Source: a bacterium (GTDB lineage: Bacteria; Electryoneota; Electryoneia; Electryoneales; Electryoneaceae). From it: a stretch of DNA of 64,000 nucleotides. Position 1 is the stretch's first letter. Every line of letters begins with the position of its first letter. The position numbers were made by a program, and so were the translations under genes. The stretch lies in NCBI GenBank assembly GCA_020444265.1, contig JAHLLH010000001.1, positions 124,001 through 188,000 of the forward strand. The letters are read 5' to 3'. The notes beneath the pieces are model-generated. The model saw nothing but the letters and a program-made list of their open reading frames with translations. It was not told the DNA's origin and ran no database searches. Shown here piece after piece: positions 19,790 to 52,028 of this stretch.

Positions 19790-20033
19790 ATGTTGCGAAT
19801 CTTAGGTATTCCTAATACGTTAAGCAGTGAGCCGGTTCAGTTGCATGTTTGTTGTTTGAGGGACTGAACCACCATGATGACGGTCCACCGGCAGCCTGCC
19901 GGTCCCCGCAATCCGTCACCTTGTGTGTTATCCCGATTTGCATGGTCACGATCACATCGCAATCTGTCGAGGAGTCCCCTTGAGCACGACTGCGCATCTC
20001 ACCGCTGCTTGGAGCAGCTTGCGGGAGGAGTGT

Positions 20034-21794
20034 ATGAGCAGGCTTATGTCCCGAGTTCTGATTGGACTCACCTTTGTAGCCCTCGTGGTAGCCCCAACCT
20101 TTGCCACCATTCACCAGGTTCCAGACGCGTTTGAGACCATACAGTCTGCGATGGACGCAGCAGTTGTGGGTGATACGGTCCTCGTTGCCGATGGAACCTA
20201 TATGGAGAACATCAACTACCGCGGAAAAGATATTGTTGTGTCCAGCCATTTTCTGCTGGATCGCGATATCGACCACATTGTCAATACCATCATTGATGGA
20301 AGTGCTCATGCGGACCCTGATTCGGGCAGTACAGTCTATTTCATCAGCGGAGAGGGCAACGGAGCCATCATCATGGGTTTTACCCTGCGTGGTGGAAATG
20401 GTACTCCCTCGACCGACCAGTGGACCAATTCAAACTGGCGTGAAGGGGGTGGCATCCTTACGGAAAACTCGTCGCCGACGATCATGTTTAACCTGATTAC
20501 TGAAAACTATGTGACACAGCCGATGGGGCAGCAGGGAGCAGGGGGCGGTGGGATTCGCAGCGGCTATGGCGATCCGATTATCCTCAACAACGTGATCGCG
20601 GGAAACGAAGGACGGTACGGTTCAGGATTGGTGCTGAATGTGACCGATGCCATCGTTCGCAACAATGTCATCGCTTTCAACTCAGGCGCTTCGCTACCTG
20701 GGTTGTATGGTGGCGCGGGAATCTGGATATGGGGACTCGGGTCTGAGATCATCCTCGAAAACAACACCTTCCTCGGCAATCGTGCGACGGTGGGTGGAGG
20801 GGCAATCCTCAATTGGAATTCCGATCTGCTTGGCAGTGGGAACATCTTTTACGCCAACCAGGGTCCAGCACAAGATGATGTCTACACGTTCCAGGCGAGT
20901 GCAACCACCGCTATCACCTACAGCCGTACACAGGAACTGGAAGGAGAAGGAAATGTTGAGCTTGAGCCACTATTTTCCAACACTGATCTTCATCTAGACC
21001 CCATGTCGCTGCTAGTCGATGCGGGCAATCCCAACGATGCATTTGATGATCCTGAAGATCCCCAGATGGATGGGCAGGCGCAGCACCCGGCGCAGGGAAC
21101 GACTGCTTCGGATATGGGAGCTTTTGGTGGTCCGGGAGCATCCGAGCTGCCACCTGTTCCGGTTATGGGAGTTTTTGGCTACATCAGTCCGAGCAACTCA
21201 GCTTTCGATTTCGGTGAAACAGTTATCGGAGAATCCTACTCACAGGCTATGCCAATCTGGAACCATGGGAACGGGTCGGTTCTAGTAGACAGCATCACCT
21301 TCAGATTTGAAAACCAGGACCAATTCAGCTTTAATCCAACAGTACCGTTTGAACTGGAGATGTTCAGCGAGGACAGCTTGCGGATTACCTGGACCCCCAT
21401 TGAAGAGGGACCCTTCGGTGATGTGGTAACAATCTTTTATTCGAACAACGGTGTCGTATCCAGTATCAATCTTGCGGTTCAGGGCACCGCCTCCTCGACC
21501 GGTATCGAGCATGAACCGGCAACACTCACCAGGAGTTTCCTCGACCCGGCATTTCCGAATCCTTTCAACCCCTCCACCACCGTTCGGTATGGCCTGGCAC
21601 AACCTGCCAACATGTCGTTGACACTTTACGATATACTTGGGCGACGGGTACAAACCCTGGAACGGGGAAGACGTGCCCCTGGAACCCACGCGGTTGTGCT
21701 TGATGGTAGCCAGCTCGCAAGTGGAACTTACTTGTTGCAGCTGAAAACGGACGGGGGCTTTGATGCAGTCAGTAAAGTGTACCTGGTGAAGTAA
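20034..21794 (+). CDS. Secreted right-handed beta-helix protein with ASH-like module and T9SS sorting domain
   Basis: 586 residues. A signal peptide (VLIGLTFVALVVAPTFA) leads into a parallel beta-helix beginning IHQVPDAFETIQSAMDAA with the typical GDTVLVADGTY turn, then repeated N-N-x-I rungs (ILNNVIAGN, VRNNVIAFN, LENNTFLGN). After it comes an ASH/choice-of-anchor-like module (FDFGETVIGESYS) and a T9SS sorting domain (FPNPFNPSTTVRYGL to VYLVK). Such proteins often bind or cleave polysaccharides, but no lyase residues are evident. ATG 20034 follows GCGGGAGGAG; the upstream extension lacks a signal peptide. The leader holds two hairpins (GGTTCAGT/ACTGAACC, and ACCGGCA/TGCCGGT). A paralogue with the same plan lies at 39419. 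Confidence 0.85.
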   Translation: MSRLMSRVLIGLTFVALVVAPTFATIHQVPDAFETIQSAMDAAVVGDTVLVADGTYMENINYRGKDIVVSSHFLLDRDIDHIVNTIIDGSAHADPDSGSTVYFISGEGNGAIIMGFTLRGGNGTPSTDQWTNSNWREGGGILTENSSPTIMFNLITENYVTQPMGQQGAGGGGIRSGYGDPIILNNVIAGNEGRYGSGLVLNVTDAIVRNNVIAFNSGASLPGLYGGAGIWIWGLGSEIILENNTFLGNRATVGGGAILNWNSDLLGSGNIFYANQGPAQDDVYTFQASATTAITYSRTQELEGEGNVELEPLFSNTDLHLDPMSLLVDAGNPNDAFDDPEDPQMDGQAQHPAQGTTASDMGAFGGPGASELPPVPVMGVFGYISPSNSAFDFGETVIGESYSQAMPIWNHGNGSVLVDSITFRFENQDQFSFNPTVPFELEMFSEDSLRITWTPIEEGPFGDVVTIFYSNNGVVSSINLAVQGTASSTGIEHEPATLTRSFLDPAFPNPFNPSTTVRYGLAQPANMSLTLYDILGRRVQTLERGRRAPGTHAVVLDGSQLASGTYLLQLKTDGGFDAVSKVYLVK

Positions 21795-25934: not shown

Positions 25935-27962
25935 TTACTTGATCAGCGAAACTTTCCGCATCACAGTTGAAGTTTCTGTCGCGACACGCACGAGGTAGAT
26001 GCCTGACGACATGTCTGTGGCATCCCAGCTTAAGGTGTGGTGACCAGCATTGTACGAACCGCTGGCAAGACGAGCCACTTCCTGACCCAACAGGTTAAAG
26101 ACGCTCACCTTCACCTGACCAGCCTGCGGTAGCGCAAAGTCGACGCTGAGGGCCGCGTTGAACGGGTTCGGCCAGGTTGACAGATCGAGGTTCGTCGGCA
26201 GAATTGCTTCCGCATCGGACGGCACATCGTTGACATCTCCGCCCATCCAGGTCAGCAAGGTGTTCAGCAGATCACCCGGTGCTGTTGTACCGTTCATGCC
26301 CGATACAGCCTGCATGTTGAAGGCGACGTAAACAGCAGCGTAGTCATCGTCACGATAGCCGCTCGCGCCACGTTCCGTGGTCTGGATGTACTTGAAGAAT
26401 GGGACAGCGCCGCCATCTTCCACCAGGCTCAAGGTGCTGGGGTTCGTTGAATGACCATCTCCACCGACGAGGATCAAGTCGAGATCGAGGAAAAGATCCG
26501 GGCAGTCGTTATGAGGTACCAAGCGAATCCGTGAGGCAGTCGGCGGAGCATCCAGACGGTGATAGACCTTGAACCAATCCTGGAACCACTGGTTGCTGCC
26601 CTCATCCTCTCCGATCTGTTCACCATTCAAAATCAGGTTGCCACCAGCTTCCATGAAGTCGACCAGAATCGTAACTTCCGCTTCGGTGAGCACGTCGCCG
26701 TCTGCGGTGGAAGTCGCCCAGATCACGGTCGAATAGTCCATGATCCCGTATTCAGTTACCGCGGCTTCCGTGTAGATCTCAGGAGCGACACCCGCACCCA
26801 TGAACATGTTGAACCAGGCGTCGTAATCCTCGTCACCATCGCCATAGTCATTCACAAACAGCATGTCCGGAGTACCAACAAGCTGGATGAACTCGACCTG
26901 GGTCGTGTACTCGGTCGCTCCATCGCTTAAAGTGACAGTGAAGGTGACATACTCCTCTTCGAACTCTTCCGGGACCTCGATCACAAAATGATCATCCGTA
27001 TTCGCTAGCTGGGCACCGGGTTCAATTGCATCCCAGGAAGCCTGGTTGTCGGTGATCGTGATGTTCTCGTTGTCGCAGGTGAGCGTTCCGGTCAGTCCAT
27101 CAGTCGCGAGGAACTGCGGATCGTTCTCGAGCAGGACTGTCAGTTCGGCCGTTTCACCGGCGTCAGGGCGGCCATTTTCCATGTCGCCCGGATCGATCAC
27201 CGTATGTGAGACGAAAGTCAGGAAGGGTGTGGTTGCTGGCACCGGATTATACTGGGCTTGCAGGACTTCGTTGGTGCTGGTGGACTGAATCCAGGCGATG
27301 ACAGCGAGGTTCGACAGCGGGTACTGGCTTTCGTACGGGAAAATCGCTTCCATTTCTACCGTACCACCCGCATCACCAGTCACTGTTGTACCCGAAGCAT
27401 TGGGGTGCATGTCGAGCATGCTGTCGTAGTAATCCGCGACACCATTCGGACCCGGCGGTTCCAGGTGATGAAACTCTTCGACAAGCGCGATATAGAGTTT
27501 CATCTGATCAGGAAGGGCTTCATCGAGTGTGATCGTCAAGGGAACATGGATGTTTCCATCTCCCTGAAGTTCCGGATCCATTTCGATGAGGTAGGGGGAC
27601 TCACGATCGAGACGGTTTGCGACTAACGTCGCCAGACCGTTGGTAGGCAAAGTTCCAACCTGCCCGTCTGTACGGAACGCTGGAATACCAGTGATACCAT
27701 AGTAATTACGGCGAACTTCGTTGTCCGACTGGTTATGAAGATACCAGGGGTCCGAACCACTCGGCCAGCTCATGTGCCACGTAATGCCAATAACCTGGTC
27801 GCGTGTGTACTCATTCAAGATATTATGGTAGGGCGCAGCCTGCGCCGAACAGTACGGTCAACCATAATTGTCAAAATCCTCGATGAGGACCCTGCGGGGG
27901 TAAGCATCGGCGCTGCTGGCGATCAGCAGACCGAGCATGACGAGAACTGCTGCCTTTTTCAT
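25935..27962 (-). CDS. Putative selenoprotein: Omp28-like thioredoxin-fold T9SS cargo with a UxxC motif (in-frame TGA)
   Basis: The full frame starts at ATG 27962 (GAGGAAC before it) and reads 675 residues if the in-frame TGA at 27858-27860 (codon 35) is decoded as selenocysteine. Residues 1-20 are a signal peptide (VLVMLGLLIASSADA). Residues 25-38 read VLIEDFDNYG-U-PYC, which aligns exactly with the E-x-F-x4-C-x-x-C start of Omp28-like thioredoxin folds, so TGA replaces the first redox cysteine. The cis-proline loop GITGIPAF (P94) confirms the fold. Then come an Ig-like module, a glutamine-amidotransferase-like module (DMLFVNDYGDGDEDY) and a T9SS sorting domain from WPNPFN to VSLIK. Coding quality is the same on both sides of the TGA. 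A SECIS-like hairpin lies 11 nt downstream. The alternatives are a nonsense mutation or a sequencing error in a Cys codon; without readthrough only a 34-residue stub would be made. Confidence 0.8.
27832..27860 (-). promoter_or_regulatory. Candidate bacterial SECIS element with its UGA
   Basis: On the minus strand the UGA (27860-27858) is followed by C, a weak termination context. Eleven bases later a perfect 6-bp mini-hairpin GGCGCA-GGC-TGCGCC (27846-27832) begins. Its loop opens with G and lies 17 nt from the UGA, inside the 16-37 nt window and with the loop guanine required by the bacterial SECIS consensus. The core GCAGG...CTGC resembles the apical part of the E. coli fdhF SECIS. No bulged U is evident in the stem. 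Confidence 0.7.
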
Positions 27963-28294
27963 GTTCCTCGTCCCTTTCTCGTTTGGGAGGCGAAATAACT
28001 CTCTTCCAACTAGTCAATTTCTGGCCTGAAAAGGAGATGCGCAAGGCTGAGGGCTCTTGGTGTATGCGCCTGGATTTCGGAAGTATCAAAGACCTCAAGG
28101 GAAGAAAAGCGAAGATGTTCAAGGCTTTGGGGGCCATTGTAGTAGAAACCACACCTCTGCTCTCGGCTCTCCAATCTCTGCTGCGAGGGTACCTATACTT
28201 AGGCAGTTGTTGTCCCAAATGCAACGTCTTATCTATCGCTTTAAGAGGTTGTGAACATGATTACACTCGTTGGTGCAAGCAAATTGGAGTAGCT
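27963..28294. other. Divergent intergenic region
   Basis: About 330 bases between the divergent selenoprotein-candidate and TSUP genes. The plus-strand frame running through it has no signal of coding before the ATG at 28295. A TATACT sequence near 28195 could be a -10 element for the permease, but no matching -35 was found. I see no conserved RNA structure. Confidence 0.35.
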
Positions 28295-29095
28295 ATGGGC
28301 ATGGAATCCCTGCTGTTTTTTGCGCTGATCGGTATCTTAGGTGGGACTGCGGCCGGCTTCATTGGGATCGGAGGAGGGGTTATTATGGTCCCCGTCCTGC
28401 TCGAGGTGTTTCGTGCACAGGGCGTTCCGACAGAAGTTCTGGTCCATGTCAGCATGGGGACCTCAGTCGCGGTTGCCTCGCTCTCCTCAGTCTCATCTGC
28501 ATTTCGTCACCATCGGCAGGGGAATGTCCTCTGGCGAGTCGCCCCCATACTTGCAACAAGCAGCTTTGCAGCAGGATTGGCGGCGGGGATGCTCGCCCAA
28601 CTGATTCCCGGCGTCGGGCTGCAACGTGGCCTGGCCGTTGTCCTGCTGCTGGCGGCCTTCAGGATGTTCGCGGATCAGAACAAGCCGGACCTGCCTGAGC
28701 GGAAACTGCCCTGGTGGGGATGGACAATCATGGGTGTTCTGACAGGAGTATTTTCAGGCTTCACCGGGCTGGCTGGAGGGCTGTTTCTCATTCCATTGAT
28801 GGCATTTATCCCGCACGTTCCCACCAGAAAACTGGCGGGGACTTCCTCTGGAGTTGTGATGTTTACTGCCTTTGCGGCTGCTCTTGGAAAAATCCTCTCC
28901 ACACCAACAATCTTCCCCGGACCCGGGTTCATCGGACATGTGAACGTGCTGGCGGCACTCGCCCTCGCAAGCACATCCATCCCATCAGCCCAGCTTGGTG
29001 CCTGGTTGAATCGTCGAGTCGGATCTGTGGTCTACAAAAGGATTTTTGCGATCCTGCTTATGCTGGTCGTGATTCGATTGTTCTGGACATCCTGA
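28295..29095 (+). CDS. TSUP (TauE/SafE) family permease
   Basis: 266 residues, almost entirely hydrophobic with seven to eight transmembrane segments. The glycine-rich repeat typical of the TauE/SafE superfamily occurs twice: GILGGTAAGFIGIGGGVIMVPVL (in part, GFIGIGGGVIMVPVL) in the first half and GVFSGFTGLAGGLFLIPLM in the second. The family exports or imports small organosulfur or sulfur oxyanions such as sulfite, taurine-derived sulfoacetate or thiosulfate. ATG 28295 has GGAG five bases upstream. The longer frame runs back to 27983 with unrelated composition. It is divergent from the candidate selenoprotein, but no functional link to selenium is shown. Confidence 0.85.
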   Translation: MGMESLLFFALIGILGGTAAGFIGIGGGVIMVPVLLEVFRAQGVPTEVLVHVSMGTSVAVASLSSVSSAFRHHRQGNVLWRVAPILATSSFAAGLAAGMLAQLIPGVGLQRGLAVVLLLAAFRMFADQNKPDLPERKLPWWGWTIMGVLTGVFSGFTGLAGGLFLIPLMAFIPHVPTRKLAGTSSGVVMFTAFAAALGKILSTPTIFPGPGFIGHVNVLAALALASTSIPSAQLGAWLNRRVGSVVYKRIFAILLMLVVIRLFWTS

Positions 29096-29266: not shown

Positions 29267-31987
29267 ATGATGAGAAAGTTTGTCCCATTACTGACTGTGC
29301 TACTGCTCTTCGGGGTCCTGCTGCCCCTGCAGGCTGCGCCCATGCAACTCGATTACTTGCCCGGGAAGCTGTTGGTACGTTTCACCCACGATGTTCAGCT
29401 TCAGATGGATGGGAAAAGTGTTGTCTCCTCGGAATCCGAGCTGAACCGTCTGCTCACTCGTTTTGATGCCTACGCGTTCAAGGGAACCTACGAGCCTTAC
29501 ATCATCCAGGATGAAGAGTTTCGTGCGTTCACACGCAATGACAAAACGATCTTTTTCCCGGAAGCGACTGATATCAACTTGGTGATGGCTGAATTCAACC
29601 AGTTGAGCAGTGTTGATGAAGCCATCCCGGACTGGCTGATGCCGGTGGATGAGATGTGCCCGACGGATGATCCCAGCCTCGCTAGCCAGTGGTGGATCAA
29701 CAAGACCTCCGCGAAGGAAGCCTGGTGCCACAACACGGGAAATTCGGACATCCTCGTTGTTGCGATCGATTCAGGTACGGATTGGAACCATCCTGACTAC
29801 ATCGATCATATCTGGCGTAATCTTGGGGAAGACCCTGATGGCGATGTCCATAACTATCAGTCCCTGACCGCAGACTACATCCTGACAGGTACCGGGGATG
29901 ACGGTCAGGATAACGATGGTAACGGCCTCGTAGATGACTTCCTTGGCTGGGATTTTGTCGCTTCTGCCTCTTCGCCGAATCCGAACGAGGATTCAAATTC
30001 CCCGGATAACAACCCGATTGACTTCAATGGCCATGGTACTGGCTGCGCCGGTGCCCTTGCCCAGGTCGGTAATAATGGTGTTGGTACCGCCGGCATGGCT
30101 TACAACACTACGATCATCGGGATGCGCTGTGGCTATGAAAACAGCCAGGGCAATGGCCTGATCATCACCAGTGCCGCGCTGCAGGGTATTGCCTACGCGG
30201 TTGACAAGGGTGCACAGGTCATTAACATGTCGTATGGCGGACCGAGCTACATCAGCCAGGTCAACACAGCCATGGTTAATGCCTGGAACAATGGTGCCCT
30301 GCTGTTTGGTGCCGCAGGCAACGATGGTGTCGGTTCGCTGCACTACCCGGCTGCGTATAACAACGTGATTGCCGTTGGTGCCAGTACACAGAGCGATGGT
30401 CGAGCCAACTTCTCGAACTATGGCAACTGGGTGGATGTTTCCGCTCCAGGGACCGGCTGCTTCACGGGCTGGTTTGATGATGCCTATACGACTTGGGATG
30501 GTACCTCGGTCGCATCGCCGATCGCCGCTGGCGTCGGTGCCCTCGTGATTGATGCATTCCCCGATTCCTCCAACACATTCTGGCGTATGGTTGTCGAGGA
30601 GACCACGGACTTGATCACCACGGACCAGCCACTCGGAACAGGTCGTGTGAATGCCTACAAGGCCGTCACACAGTTCAAATTCCCCGAGATGAGCATCGAT
30701 TCGGTCGCGGTACTGAACGCGGGTGAAAATGGTTTCCCCGATCCGGGCGAAACGTTCAATGTCTACGTCGAGCTGAGCAACGAGCTGGGCTGGATGGATG
30801 CGGAAAATGTGACCATTACCGTCAGCTTTGACAACGAAGACCTTACCGCAACCACCAACGACGTAAATATCGGGACGATCCAGGATGGCGCTGCAGCGAA
30901 CAATGCAGACAACCTGGTGGCGGTCGAGGTGTCGGAAGATGCAGAAAATGGTATCTTTGTCAACATGTACGTGACCATTTCTGCTGATCCAAATGACTAT
31001 GTCATCGAAACCCAGAAACGGATTCTCGTTGGAACGCCTCAGGTGCTGGTTGTTGACGATGATGGTGGGGAAGATTACGAGACCTATATCTCCGCTGATC
31101 TGGATTCGCTCGGCGAAGTCTATTTCTCTTATGATGTTGCTGATCTGGGCGTATCACCCAGCCTCAACACCCTGACACGGCAGCCAGTGGTCCTCTGGAT
31201 GACAGGCAGCACCTCAGATCCGCTTAGCGAAGAAGAGCAGACCTCGATTTCCGACGCAATCGATGCGGGAATCAATGTCTTCCTCTTCGGTCAGACCATT
31301 CACGACCAATTGAACGGGACCGATTTCTACGCGAATGTTCTGCATGCAACCGAAGGTGAAGGATCAGTTGCCTTCCATGGTGTGGATGCGGTAGAAGGTG
31401 TTGGTGGTCCGATTGTGGACGACCAGCGTCTCGTGATGATCGGTGGCAGTGGTGCAGGCAACAGCACAGACCCAGACATTGTCGATGCAATCGCTCCCGG
31501 AATGGTGGGGTATCGTTACCTGGTCGCTTCTGGTGAAGGTGCCCCGGCGGGTGTCTTTGTCGGCGGTGAAGAGGATGCGAAATTGCTTTATCTGCCCTTC
31601 GCCTTCGAAGCGGTCAGCGGTGACAACAACACCACGTCCCGTGAAGACGTGCTCCTTGGTGTTCTGAACTGGTTCCGTGGTGTCAGCGATGTGCCATTCG
31701 CCGATCCGTCGGAACAGCTTCCGACCGAATTCGCCATCGAATCGGCTTACCCGAACCCCTTCAACCCCTCCACGACACTGCGTGTCAACGTACCGGCTGC
31801 TTCCCAGGTGAAGCTGGCGGTTTACGATGTGCTGGGTCGTCAGGTCGCCACCTTGGTGGACGGCCGTATGGGCGCGGGTCGTCACTCTATCAGTTGGAAT
31901 GCCTCCAACGTTTCGACGGGCATCTACTTCGCTGTCCTTGAAGCACAAGGCACTCGTCAGGTGACCAAGTTGGCGTTCATGAAGTAA
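29267..31987 (+). CDS. Secreted subtilisin-like (S8) serine protease with T9SS sorting domain
   Basis: 906 residues. A signal peptide (LLTVLLLFGVLLPLQA) and an N-terminal prodomain (about 24-130) precede a subtilase domain. Its catalytic triad is D168 (VVAIDSGTDW), H256 (NGHGTGCAG) and S414 (DGTSVASPIAAG). The oxyanion asparagine is in LLFGAAGNDG. After it come an Ig-like module (GENGFPDPGETFNVYVEL), a glutamine-amidotransferase-like module (VLVVDDDGGEDYETY) and a T9SS sorting domain (YPNPFNPSTTLRVNV to LAFMK). The Ig and amidotransferase-like modules closely match those of the selenoprotein candidate on the other side of the TSUP gene. It probably degrades extracellular protein. Start ATG 29267, with a second ATG next to it, follows TTTGGAGATGC. 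Confidence 0.93.
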   Translation: MMRKFVPLLTVLLLFGVLLPLQAAPMQLDYLPGKLLVRFTHDVQLQMDGKSVVSSESELNRLLTRFDAYAFKGTYEPYIIQDEEFRAFTRNDKTIFFPEATDINLVMAEFNQLSSVDEAIPDWLMPVDEMCPTDDPSLASQWWINKTSAKEAWCHNTGNSDILVVAIDSGTDWNHPDYIDHIWRNLGEDPDGDVHNYQSLTADYILTGTGDDGQDNDGNGLVDDFLGWDFVASASSPNPNEDSNSPDNNPIDFNGHGTGCAGALAQVGNNGVGTAGMAYNTTIIGMRCGYENSQGNGLIITSAALQGIAYAVDKGAQVINMSYGGPSYISQVNTAMVNAWNNGALLFGAAGNDGVGSLHYPAAYNNVIAVGASTQSDGRANFSNYGNWVDVSAPGTGCFTGWFDDAYTTWDGTSVASPIAAGVGALVIDAFPDSSNTFWRMVVEETTDLITTDQPLGTGRVNAYKAVTQFKFPEMSIDSVAVLNAGENGFPDPGETFNVYVELSNELGWMDAENVTITVSFDNEDLTATTNDVNIGTIQDGAAANNADNLVAVEVSEDAENGIFVNMYVTISADPNDYVIETQKRILVGTPQVLVVDDDGGEDYETYISADLDSLGEVYFSYDVADLGVSPSLNTLTRQPVVLWMTGSTSDPLSEEEQTSISDAIDAGINVFLFGQTIHDQLNGTDFYANVLHATEGEGSVAFHGVDAVEGVGGPIVDDQRLVMIGGSGAGNSTDPDIVDAIAPGMVGYRYLVASGEGAPAGVFVGGEEDAKLLYLPFAFEAVSGDNNTTSREDVLLGVLNWFRGVSDVPFADPSEQLPTEFAIESAYPNPFNPSTTLRVNVPAASQVKLAVYDVLGRQVATLVDGRMGAGRHSISWNASNVSTGIYFAVLEAQGTRQVTKLAFMK

Positions 31988-41437: not shown

Positions 41438-42415
41438 TCAGGCATGAGCTTCGGCGTTGGCTTCTTCCGTTTCCTCGGCCTTTTCTTCCAGCCAACGTTC
41501 CGCATCAATCGCTGCACGGCAGCCCGATCCGGCGGCGGTGACCGCTTGACGGTAGACATGGTCACGTACATCACCAGCAGCGAAGACGCCTTCGATTTCC
41601 GTGCGGGTCGAATCGGCATCCGCGATCAGGTAGCCCGTTTCATCCATTGAAAGCTGGCCAGCGAATAGGTCGGTGTTCGGCTTGTGGCCGATGGCGAGGA
41701 AGAAACCCTCGACGTTTAGGGTGCTCTTCTCGCCGGTGACCGTATCCTCGAGCGCCACCCCGGTCACACCACTCTCCTTGTCGCCAAGAACTTCGTTGAC
41801 CGTCTTGTTCCAATGTACAACGACCTTCTCATTGCTCAGCGCACGCTTCTGCATGATCTTGCTGGCACGGAACTCGTCGCGACGATGGATCAGGTGCACC
41901 TTGGAGGCATGTCGTGTCAGGTAAGTTGCCTCTTCCATGGCGGTATCGCCACCACCAACAACCGCTACCTCTTTGCCCGTGAAGAAGAATCCATCACACG
42001 TTGCACAGGCCGACACACCAAAACCCATCAACTCCTGCTCGCTCGGTAGACCAAGCCATTTGGCGGAGGCGCCTGTGGAGATGATAACGGCATCCGCGAG
42101 GATTTCCTCATCCTCTGCCCAGAGGCGGAAAGGCGAGCCGTGGGTCAGATCGACCTTGGTGACATCTTCATGGCGAAGTTCAGCGCCGAAACGGCCTGCC
42201 TGCTTGCGGAAAGCATCCATCATCTCCGGGCCGGTGATCCCTTCCGGGAAGCCAGGGTAGTTCTCGACGTCCGTTGTGATCATCAGCTGACCGCCGGAGG
42301 CGAAGCCTTCCATCACGAGGACGTTGAGATTTGCACGTGATGCGTAAATCGCGGCCGTGTAGCCTGCCGGGCCGCTTCCAATAATGACTACCTGGTAATG
42401 CTTTGTCTCGCCCAT
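41438..42415 (-). CDS. trxB: Thioredoxin reductase
   Basis: 325 residues. FAD-binding GxGxxG at the start ([17 protein letters not shown]), the second nucleotide-binding site [14 protein letters not shown], the redox pair C137-A-T-C140 ([12 protein letters not shown]) and the closing FAD motif [10 protein letters not shown] are all present. It reduces thioredoxin with NADPH in the cytoplasm. The C-terminus has an extra Glu/Ala-rich tail ([16 protein letters not shown]). It is 42 nt downstream of rsmE on the same strand and may be co-transcribed. It could feed electrons toward the TlpA-like and selenocysteine thioredoxin-fold proteins of the window only through a transmembrane relay, which is not seen here. 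Confidence 0.95.
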
Positions 42416-42457
42416 GGTTCGTCCGTTCTTTTTCAGTCCACTATCGATGATTGATGT

Positions 42458-43189
42458 TCACTTGTTTGGGTTGAGATCCGCTGTCAGGATCAGGTGTGAA
42501 ACACCTACTGCGACAGCTGTCTCGCTACGAAGCCGTCGGTCGCCCAGACGGACACGCTGAAATCCCGCATCCTCCAACATGCCCAGTTCCTCGTTGTGGA
42601 AACCACCTTCCGGGCCGATAGCGAGGGCAACCTGCTCTCCCGGGTTCATCTCCGGAAGTGGTCCGCCATCCCCATCCAGCAGGATCCGATGCGTTATCTC
42701 TCTTACTTCGATGCACCATTTGTCGAGGGGTTGCACCGGGTGGAGCGGAGGAACGAGGCCTCGGCCGCATTGTTTGGCAGCTGTCCGGGCGATACGCTCC
42801 GCTCTGCTCGCTTTTTTATCGGTCCAACCGGCAACCGAATAGCGTGTCTCCAGAGGAGTGACCGAAGCGACACCCGCCTGCACTGCGAGGTTGATTGCAT
42901 CGCTGACATGGTCTGCCTTCAGCAGCCCAAGGCCGAGGTGGACTGTCAGGCCTGGCTCATTCCAGGCAGGTAGGGGGTCGCCAATGTTCAGGATGGCCGA
43001 GATGGAGTCCGCCTGTTGAAAGGAGGCGGGCCAGGCGGTACCCATGCCATCGATCAACATAACCTCGTCTCCCGGTCGAGCACGTCTCACCCGCAGCAGG
43101 TGATGGGCCTCATCGCCTTCGAGCAGGGCGGTGTTGCGAGCTGGATCGATGGAGGCTGGATCGACGATATACACTTCGAGTTGCGCCAT
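42458..43189 (-). CDS. rsmE: 16S rRNA m3U1498 methyltransferase
   Basis: 243 residues of the RsmE/SPOUT family. The conserved EGDEAHHLLRVRRARPGDEV, in part DEAHHLLRVRR, forms the N-terminal PUA-like part. The trefoil-knot SAM site is LAIGPEGGFHNEE, followed by RLGDRRLRSETAV. The enzyme methylates U1498 of 16S rRNA using SAM. The frame is open upstream, but MAQLEVYIVDPAS at 43189 matches the family start; its ribosome-binding site is weak. It precedes trxB and diverges from the M2/M3-type peptidase. Confidence 0.93.
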   Translation of the reverse strand: MAQLEVYIVDPASIDPARNTALLEGDEAHHLLRVRRARPGDEVMLIDGMGTAWPASFQQADSISAILNIGDPLPAWNEPGLTVHLGLGLLKADHVSDAINLAVQAGVASVTPLETRYSVAGWTDKKASRAERIARTAAKQCGRGLVPPLHPVQPLDKWCIEVREITHRILLDGDGGPLPEMNPGEQVALAIGPEGGFHNEELGMLEDAGFQRVRLGDRRLRSETAVAVGVSHLILTADLNPNK

Positions 43190-43391
43190 GGCCAAAGATA
43201 GGGACTGTCGTCCCTCTCTGCCACTCTGGCGGAAATGCGGTCGAACGGCCCTCATCGTGCAGAAACAGACCATACTCAACTTGCAAAAAATCGTGAAGAT
43301 TAGTACCTTTGCAGGCTAAATCTCAAGGACGATCCGTGCGAAGCGATGGTTCGTTTCGCACCCCTACCAGATGTGTACGGAGGAAGTGGCG

Positions 43392-49009: not shown

Positions 49010-49477
49010 TTACTTGTCTTCATCCGAAGGTTTGTCCAATTCTACACCTTCCTGTCCTTCGGCAAGAGCACGGAGCTCGTCTTTGATCTCCTGGATCTGC
49101 TTGATTTTGGTCTGAATCCGTCCAAACAGGTCACTCTTGGTCGCAATACCCTCTGCAATCAGGTAGGCGGCAGCTTCGCTTCGACTGCGGAATAAGCCTG
49201 CGTCTTTCAGATCCGTGATCCGCTCCAGAGCTTCGTCGTTGATACGAACCATGAGGACATGATCGCGAGAATTCAGTGCACGCTTTACCACAGATGATAC
49301 CCCTTCTGCCCCAGTGGAGAAACCCTGTTTCACCTTGCCTGCCGCACGTTTGACACGCTCACTGATATCCTCTGCGGACTCAGGATCATCCTGATCAGGT
49401 TCGTTGATACCGAAAAATTCATCCTCTTCTTCGATGGCATCCGGTTGGACCGCTTCCTGCTTTTTGGGGTCGGCCAT
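49010..49477 (-). CDS. Acidic protein with ribbon-helix-helix-like segment, function unknown
   Basis: 155 residues, soluble. The first 50 residues are acidic (AIEEEDEFFGINEPDQDD). The middle part VLMVRINDEALERITDLKDAGLFRSRSEAAAYLIAEGI, in part VRINDEALERITDL and RSRSEAAAYLIAEGI, resembles a ribbon-helix-helix DNA-binding segment. The end is a predicted coiled coil (FGRIQTKIKQIQEIKDELRA). Start ATG 49477 has GAGGATC upstream. I do not recognise the family. It sits between the helicase and TlpA-like genes on the same strand. Confidence 0.7.
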   Translation of the reverse strand: MADPKKQEAVQPDAIEEEDEFFGINEPDQDDPESAEDISERVKRAAGKVKQGFSTGAEGVSSVVKRALNSRDHVLMVRINDEALERITDLKDAGLFRSRSEAAAYLIAEGIATKSDLFGRIQTKIKQIQEIKDELRALAEGQEGVELDKPSDEDK

Positions 49478-49633
49478 ACGATCCTCATCTGGTGGTAAGC
49501 CTGTCAGCGAATTCAACACAGGCGGGTATTCCAAGCTATGAACAACCTGCCTGTAGAACAGAAGTATACGCAGAGAGCGGTTGCCGATCAAAGTATCACA
49601 GCCCTGTCTGCTACTCTGGCACTCACGAGGCGG

Positions 49634-51961
49634 TCAGGGGCGATGTGTCCAGTCTGCTAGCAGGTTGTGGAGAATGGTGGGGTCATCATGAACTTCGGCT
49701 TCACGCCAACCATCGGGCATCAATGACTCAATATCGGGACGAGTGAACCGTGGGTCAATCAGCAGGAGTGCACCACGCTGTTCGGGACCACGGATCAATC
49801 TGCCTGCGGCTTGCTGAACCCGACGCAACCCCGGCAGCAAGTAAGCCTTCAGTAATCCCGACTCACCCCGTTCTTCGGTCACGACACGCATCAATTCCGC
49901 ACGTGGAGATGGGGGTGGTAAGCCGATGCTGACGATGGCCAGGCCACGATACCCACCCTCGAGCAGGTCCATGCCCTCGGCAAGGGTGCCACCCATCAGC
50001 GCGAGATGCAGCGCGGACGTACTACCTTCGGTCAGCCGTTTCATCAGGGAAGGGGGCATCCCTGGACGCAACGCCAAGGCGGGGGTGGAGCGGGTTGCCA
50101 AGTGACGATTCAGCAACTCGAGGTACGCACGGGAGGGAAGAAAGACCAGCCAGTTCCCGCCAGTGGCTTTCACACATCCGCTGAGCAGGTCTGCAAGGGT
50201 AGGTGCCGTTTCTTCACGTCTTGCCCAGGTGGTATCGATCCCGGCATACCTTAGCACCAAACGCTGATCTCGCCCGTACGGGTCTGGGAGTCGGACCAGA
50301 CGAGAGTGTGCAACAGGAAGCCCCAATTCCTCACGAGCGATCTCGAGAGGATCAAGGGTGGCGGAGAAGGCGATCACACTGCTGTACCACTCAGAAAGAA
50401 TTGACAGTACCTGCCCGGTCTCGGCCAGTTCACAACACCAAGTGCCGTTCATCCTGTCGAGATAAGCAGCGTAGCCGGATGGCTGGGATGCCGCTGTGAT
50501 GGCTCGTTGGAGCTGGTACAGCGATTCTCGCTGCTGCTCGGGCAGGGAGTCGTGCAGAGTGCTACTGATCAGTTCGAGGGCATGCAGAAAATGAGGTTGC
50601 AGGATCGGGTCGGCTGGATCGACACGGTCATAAATCGGCAAGCCCTCGTTATCTTCTTCAGGATGTAGCATTTCCGCTAATAGTCCAACTATTTCCTCGA
50701 CGACCGAAGCAAGTTCACCGGTTAACGGCGAAGGGTGGTCACGCAGCTCTTCGGCCAGCCTTTTTAACTCTTCTGGTGCTAACGTGGCGGCTCGCTGGTC
50801 TCGGAGACGGTCGGGCAGGCCGTGCGCTTCGTCGATCAGCAGGATTTCCTCTCGAGAGGTCCGAACTCGTCCCATAGGGGAGCGTGTTCCCGGCGCAGGC
50901 ATCGCCAGCAGGTTCATATCACCAATCAAGACATCGGCATAGCGCATTGCTTCTCGCTGAAGCTGAACAGGGTCAACCTGGTGCGCGAGAGCGACATCCC
51001 GCACTGCTTCACCATCGAGGACGATCCCCCTGTCGAGCCATTCGAGGAACCATTCAGGTGGATCCCAGGGGTCGAAGGGGAGGGAGGCCTCTTCAGGCAA
51101 GTCAAATCCATCCAGCAATTTTTCCTGCGCGGTCAGGATCAGCATGCGACCGCGTGCTTCAGCATCTGCGGCTTCGCAGAGCAACTCTCCTCGACTCTGC
51201 TGCTGTGCGGTCCGCGATGTGGCGAAGGCGAGACGTTTACCATGCTTACAGGAGTGACGGAAAGCGGTTAGAAGAACAGGAGCGGTCTTGCCACTGCCGG
51301 TAGGAGCAGAGATCAACGCATGCTGTCCACTAGTCAAGGCCGATTCGACCTCAGCTTCCATTACTTCCTGGCCGGGTCGCTTTTCAGGGTAAGGCCAGCG
51401 AATCCGATTAGCAGTCGCTTTACGAGCCTCCAGACGTTCCGTCTCACGACGGTGCCAATTCAGAATCGCCTGCATTCTGCGTTCGAGTTCAGCCCAGGTG
51501 ACCTCCTCGAGATGGGTCGAGAAGAGGGATTCAGCACGCGTGATCGGATGAAGGTAGCAGAGCTGTCCAACGGCGGTTGTACCCTGCTTATCAAGCATGG
51601 CGAGATAGATTAGCAGCTGCATCTGATGGGAGGGATAGGGCAGGAGCGATGAGTTCGCGAAAGTTGATTTTAATTCTTCTACGATCGCTGTATCATCACC
51701 CTGCCAGATTCCGTCGATACGACCATGCAGCACAATCTCCGCTCCATCAAGCGACCCGCTCCAGGTTACCTCGACTTCCGAGCGGAAATCGTCGAAACGT
51801 TCAGCACGTTTCTCACCGTGGAGAATATGCAAATCTCGTCCCAGTTCGGACCGGGAGGCAAGATCACCTGCGATGCGTGGATCGCGAACACGCTCGACAT
51901 AAAGCAGATCGCCGACCGCCAGGTGAAGACGGTCGGCGTTGCGGTCATACCGTACAGCCAT
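49634..51961 (-). CDS. DinG/XPD-like superfamily 2 helicase fused to an N-terminal RecB/Cas4-like nuclease
   Basis: 775 residues. Residues about 70-125 carry a PD-(D/E)XK pattern of the RecB type: GRIDGI, then IVEELKS, then HQMQLLIYLAML. Helicase motifs follow: Walker A APTGSGKTAPVL near 240, DEAH box LLIDEAHGL near 375, and VQQAAGRLIRGPEQRG near the end. Between motifs I and II the four-cysteine iron-sulfur site of XPD/DinG is absent: only two cysteines occur (HSCKH, LLCEA) and the usual CPY region reads REAMRYADVLIGD. The protein likely unwinds and cuts DNA in repair. Start ATG 51961 (or TTG 51964) is uncertain, as the frame remains open to 52024. Confidence 0.85.
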   Translation of the reverse strand: MAVRYDRNADRLHLAVGDLLYVERVRDPRIAGDLASRSELGRDLHILHGEKRAERFDDFRSEVEVTWSGSLDGAEIVLHGRIDGIWQGDDTAIVEELKSTFANSSLLPYPSHQMQLLIYLAMLDKQGTTAVGQLCYLHPITRAESLFSTHLEEVTWAELERRMQAILNWHRRETERLEARKATANRIRWPYPEKRPGQEVMEAEVESALTSGQHALISAPTGSGKTAPVLLTAFRHSCKHGKRLAFATSRTAQQQSRGELLCEAADAEARGRMLILTAQEKLLDGFDLPEEASLPFDPWDPPEWFLEWLDRGIVLDGEAVRDVALAHQVDPVQLQREAMRYADVLIGDMNLLAMPAPGTRSPMGRVRTSREEILLIDEAHGLPDRLRDQRAATLAPEELKRLAEELRDHPSPLTGELASVVEEIVGLLAEMLHPEEDNEGLPIYDRVDPADPILQPHFLHALELISSTLHDSLPEQQRESLYQLQRAITAASQPSGYAAYLDRMNGTWCCELAETGQVLSILSEWYSSVIAFSATLDPLEIAREELGLPVAHSRLVRLPDPYGRDQRLVLRYAGIDTTWARREETAPTLADLLSGCVKATGGNWLVFLPSRAYLELLNRHLATRSTPALALRPGMPPSLMKRLTEGSTSALHLALMGGTLAEGMDLLEGGYRGLAIVSIGLPPPSPRAELMRVVTEERGESGLLKAYLLPGLRRVQQAAGRLIRGPEQRGALLLIDPRFTRPDIESLMPDGWREAEVHDDPTILHNLLADWTHRP

Positions 51962-52028
51962 CAATCTCTCTTCGTATTCCCACTTGATCGTGGGTGGCCC
52001 GGGCAGTCCCGTGCCCAGGTTTCACTCC

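Follow-up and report, generated by a model that had tools for sequence, protein, structure and literature searches.

Related selenoproteins and surface proteins

Omp28-related proteins with selenocysteine (Sec) at a UxxC site were first reported by Zhang and Gladyshev in 2008 as the GOS_C family from ocean metagenomes, with 74 sequences containing Sec, 312 homologues containing Cys, and a fold of the thioredoxin-like type (PMC2398784). The corresponding NCBIfam model, NF045500 (Omp28_seleno), carries the name "Omp28-related selenoprotein", and its entry in Table 1 of a 2026 review of prokaryotic selenoproteins is "Hypothetical protein GOS_C", with UxxC given as the motif (PMC13188914). In two genomes of candidate division LCP-89, 4 and 7 known selenoproteins were counted in a 2025 study (PMC12013277). 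A further point of comparison is HBP35, whose thioredoxin activity is lost upon mutation of its two active-site cysteines (PMC2907840) and which reaches the cell surface via the Por (type IX) secretion system (T9SS) through its C-terminal domain (PMC3120885).

Reading frame and in-frame TGA

The window, the 64,000-nucleotide stretch of contig JAHLLH010000001.1 analysed here, contains on its minus strand a long frame that is interrupted by a TGA close to its start. The features of this part of the locus are as follows.

25935..27962, minus strand: full selenoprotein reading frame, 675 residues with the TGA as Sec (frame reading and homologues of the same architecture)
27858..27860, minus strand: TGA at codon 35, in frame and interpreted as the selenocysteine that opens the UPYC motif (frame and homologue alignment)
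27849..27851, minus strand: Cys38 (TGT), predicted resolving cysteine of UxxC (nearly invariant alignment column)

Reading of the minus strand from 27962 to 25935 reveals one TGA only, at 27860-27858, in an otherwise open frame that ends with TAA. This is the arrangement described in the sequence-only reading, which had placed the codon in the context EDFDNYG-U-PYC with GITGIPAF following later, and both motifs are found as claimed. The encoded product runs from a hydrophobic signal peptide through EDFDNYG-U-PYC to a type A T9SS sorting domain at the C-terminal end, and a purine-rich ribosome-binding-like stretch, AAAGGGACGAGGAAC, is present just 5' of the ATG at 27962. The mechanical table-11 ORF list gives a product of 627 residues from a TTG at 27818, which lacks the signal peptide and the active site; this is the truncation that had been anticipated for a standard gene caller. 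Two other regions of the window (41438-43279 and 49010-51964), in which TGA-ending ORFs are followed by long open frames, were considered as further selenoproteins and rejected, as they look like ordinary in-frame neighbours.

Homologues and the Sec/Cys column

Homologues were searched in 39 genomes of the phylum (candidate division LCP-89 and relatives) and are present in 38 of them; 72 were aligned with stops read through. Where the first active-site cysteine is aligned, 23 homologues have TGA (the window gene and 22 other loci), 47 have Cys, one has Asp, one has Ser and none has Trp, which supports the earlier proposal that UxxC replaces CxxC at a thioredoxin-like site. No other TGA is found within the domain in the 72 aligned homologues; a single row has an extra one, which lies before the start of that gene. 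The 23 Sec-form loci are spread over 13 genomes. The nearest homologues of the window gene are only about 38% identical to it, and one sequencing error copied from gene to gene therefore does not account for the TGA codons. A quick tree with many weak branches, from which the active-site column was left out, requires at least 10 exchanges between Sec and Cys.

Two paralogues are present in the window's own genome, one with Cys at this place (contig C1, locus L049) and one with TGA (contig C18, locus L050). The latter, at G000:C18:74000-77400, is a second Omp28-like Sec paralogue, and its SECIS-like hairpin, with 10 pairs and the loop GGC, is the longest among the homologues compared. A few homologues have odd active sites: UGPN in L057:870-2382, where the second Cys is replaced, and DDAC and SLSC in L081:445-2301 and L074:2880-4904, respectively, where the first Cys is lost. 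These sequences suggest that the redox role of such members has been altered or lost.

SECIS-like hairpin downstream of the TGA

A candidate recoding signal is located a short distance downstream of the TGA.

27832..27846, minus strand: bacterial SECIS-like hairpin GGCGCA-GGC-UGCGCC (register-based pairing test and covariation)

The hairpin consists of 6 pairs and starts 11 nt after the UGA, with the G of the apical loop starting 17 nt after it; as judged from the sequence, a hairpin with a G in its loop downstream of the UGA matches the pattern of bacterial SECIS elements. An MFE-based SECIS rule separates Sec and Cys genes poorly (14 of 23 versus 18 of 49), since the fold was altered by closing pairs of the G-U type and by adjacent helices, and it was replaced by a register-based pairing test (loop register 20-22, at least 4 pairs). 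Such a hairpin is found in 8 of the 23 Sec genes and in none of the 49 non-Sec homologues, and a second register with the loop GAUCCN is found in 5 of 23 and 1 of 49, respectively. Of 500 synonymous recodings of the window gene, 2 do as well as the hairpin of the gene itself.

In a subset of 8 covarying sequences, all 8 pair positions are changed on both sides, a result that 0 of 500 shuffles reaches; the subset was chosen for a common register, and its pairing counts are inflated because of this choice. The total folding energy of the hairpin segment is unremarkable (z -0.71), and several Sec homologues are without a clear hairpin under the simple pairing rule. Omp28-like Sec genes of family f3 mostly have the GAUCCN loop register, and those of family f1 have the loops GGC or GUC.

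Sec machinery

The search of the window's genome for the Sec machinery, proposed in the sequence-only reading as a check, returned every component that was named. The matches to selA (541.7 bits), selB (331.5 bits) and selD (362.4 bits) are all above curated cut-offs, and a tRNA-Sec with the anticodon TCA scores 59.3 bits (gathering score 47). The selD gene has its own in-frame TGA, within the active-site motif CAGUASK. Additionally, selA is above the cut-off in 13 of the 13 genomes with a Sec form, and the 5 genomes without a selA match above the cut-off contain non-Sec forms only. The association of the Sec form with selA is by itself weak (Fisher p 0.15), because selA occurs in most genomes of the phylum.

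In one family of the phylum, f3, two divergent Sec systems per genome are observed. Both appear complete in G010, G011, G013, G014 and G015, and G012 shows the arrangement in part, with 2 selA and 2 tRNA-Sec but 1 full-length selB. In G037 and G038, selB and selA are each present twice, and one tRNA-Sec was found. Photobacterium profundum 3TCK is reported to have two Sec operons in its genome (PMC5330540). A lineage in which such a pair of systems is conserved, each possibly with a SECIS specificity of its own, seems to merit a separate study.

Predicted fold and export signals

The remaining features of the protein are listed below.

27903..27962, minus strand: putative signal peptide MKKAAVLVMLGLLIASSADA, residues 1-20 (read by eye from the sequence)
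27603..27902, minus strand: predicted thioredoxin-fold domain, residues about 21-120 (structure model and structural matches)
27681..27683, minus strand: Pro94, candidate cis-proline of the thioredoxin fold in GITGIP-AF (invariant column, directly before model strand 76-79)
27243..27602, minus strand: predicted beta domain like that of Omp28 and HBP35, residues about 121-240 (PF11551 at 30.5 bits, sub-threshold; model; match to 2r2c)
25950..26174, minus strand: T9SS type A C-terminal sorting domain, residues 597-671 (PF18962 at 41.8 bits, cut-off 27; TIGR04183 at 41.1 bits, cut-off 23)

Residues 20-240 were modelled from a 12-row alignment, and both the model and the structure searches were run with Cys at position 35. 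The model (pLDDT 90) consists of a thioredoxin unit, in which the Sec position lies at the start of the first helix, followed by a beta sandwich. The best match among solved structures is HBP35 (5y1a; Z 23.8, rmsd 2.5, 215 of 221 residues), followed by 2axo (Z 18.2) and Omp28 (2r2c, Z 9.8).

The architecture of a T9SS cargo holds, with the sorting domain over the cut-offs and a signal peptide visible by eye; the Sec homologues have similar hydrophobic N-termini, and the motif [YFW][PS]NP[FY]N is present at the start of the T9SS-type tail in 20 of 23. Two T9SS genes were searched in the window's genome, the sortase PorU (693.6 bits) and SprA (537.3 bits), and both are over the cut-off. The search with the PorU model also matched dozens of T9SS-tail-like ends in this genome, and the T9SS therefore appears heavily used. 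Within the window, a beta-helix protein at 19923-21794 (plus strand) has a T9SS tail, and the divergent neighbours of the selenoprotein gene are a TauE/SafE-family transporter at 27983-29095 (plus strand) and a subtilase, likewise T9SS-tailed, at 29267-31987 (plus strand). The neighbouring genes (a cobalamin adenosyltransferase, the TauE-like transporter and the subtilase) point to no redox partner or substrate.

Interpretation of UGA 35 and the role of the protein

In light of these results, UGA 35 is predicted with high confidence to encode selenocysteine in an exported thioredoxin-like protein. If it were a true stop, whether ordinary or caused by a pseudogene mutation or a sequencing error, only the downstream ORF of 627 residues would be used; the mechanical ORF list does begin the gene at TTG 27818, and the assembly that contains the window is a draft in 19 contigs. 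This explanation is highly improbable given that TGA recurs at the same column in 22 other loci and nowhere else in the domain, in 13 genomes with that of the window included, and that the downstream hairpin is conserved and covarying. Additionally, no ribosome-binding-like sequence was found before TTG 27818, and a start at this codon removes the signal peptide together with the active site. Decoding of the UGA as Trp or Cys, with the genetic code altered or a suppressor tRNA mischarged, has precedents in that other UGA decodings occur in nature, but we give it very little credence: TGA is a normal stop in the window, where it ends 12 of the 28 long ORFs checked, the genome contains a tRNA-Sec with the anticodon TCA and all of the Sec genes, and the TGA column alternates with Cys and never with Trp.

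The main role of the selenoprotein could also differ, with heme, metal or selenium being bound at the surface as hemin is by HBP35. The closest solved structure is indeed that of a hemin-binding protein, which has thioredoxin activity as well; however, this activity requires the two active-site cysteines of HBP35, and the equivalent UxxC/CxxC pair is conserved here, which makes a mainly binding role unlikely. Thiol-disulfide exchange is the probable role of the window protein. The match to the HBP35 fold, the activity and export of HBP35, and the presence of PorU and SprA together point to a surface-displayed thioredoxin-like enzyme that may use a selenol as the attacking group.

The frame, the TGA/Cys column, the Sec machinery, the covariation of the hairpin, the T9SS genes and the predicted fold are computational results, whereas Sec insertion itself, export and the redox chemistry are inferred. 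In the proposed scheme, the hairpin that follows UGA 35 would direct its recoding by SelB and Sec-tRNA(UCA), the precursor would pass the inner membrane via its signal peptide, and the T9SS would carry the protein to the cell surface through the type A tail. There, the thioredoxin domain, which is like that of HBP35 and Omp28, would serve as a thiol/selenol:disulfide oxidoreductase, in which the selenol of UxxC may be the attacking group and Cys38 the resolving residue.

Most known bacterial selenoproteins are thought to act inside the cell or in the envelope. We lean toward a broader reading of the homologues as a phylum-wide, undescribed clade of surface thioredoxins exported by the T9SS, with at least 10 exchanges between Sec and Cys and with selenium as the reactive atom of a redox protein displayed outside the cell. 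A Sec thioredoxin at the surface, if true, raises the question of its reductant at that location, and a phylum with so many Sec/Cys pairs offers a natural test of what Sec adds. Automatic annotation truncates the Sec-form genes, such that 23 of the 72 aligned homologues would lose the signal peptide and the active site, and NF045500 at its present cut-off would not rescue those of this phylum.

Comparison with known proteins

A comparison with HBP35 of Porphyromonas gingivalis (PDB 5y1a) reveals the same two-domain fold, predicted here for the window protein, and a C-terminal T9SS signal in both; the two active-site cysteines of HBP35 correspond to the UxxC/CxxC pair that is conserved in the homologues. 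The two proteins differ in that HBP35 has Cys rather than Sec and is 344 residues long versus 675, with an identity of 13%. HBP35 is hemin-binding, and the structural likeness does not establish the same function for the window protein. The match to the Omp28 outer membrane lipoprotein family (PF11551 and NF033782; PDB 2r2c) is weak, with 30.5 and 25.3 bits, both under the cut-offs (PF11551 gathering 34.9), and the likeness in the fold of the beta domain is at Z 9.8. Unlike the Omp28 lipoprotein, the window protein has a T9SS tail, and its signal peptide lacks a lipobox cysteine.

The window protein shares with GOS_C/NF045500 the prediction as a selenoprotein, the thioredoxin-like fold, the UxxC motif and many Cys homologues. 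Residues 22-238 align with positions 38-265 of the NF045500 model (E 6e-12), but the score is only 45.6 bits against a cut-off of 200 bits, and matches above this cut-off are found in 0 of the 39 genomes of the phylum. Literature searches on Omp28 with selenoprotein and on selenoprotein with type IX secretion found nothing relevant and no relevant paper, respectively, and the prior art surfaced through the NCBIfam accession in the review table. NF045500 is GOS_C, in which Omp28-related UxxC selenoproteins were already predicted in 2008, and therefore the claim in the sequence-only reading of a new kind of selenoprotein fails. Its second claim, that a T9SS-sorted selenoprotein is undescribed, stands for the tailed form, of which no description was found (the available portions of PMC2398784 and PMC13188914 mention no T9SS tail for GOS_C), and does not extend to the broad family, which is known. 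The divergent, T9SS-tailed subfamily of this uncultured phylum is thus apparently an undescribed, distant variant of the GOS_C family.
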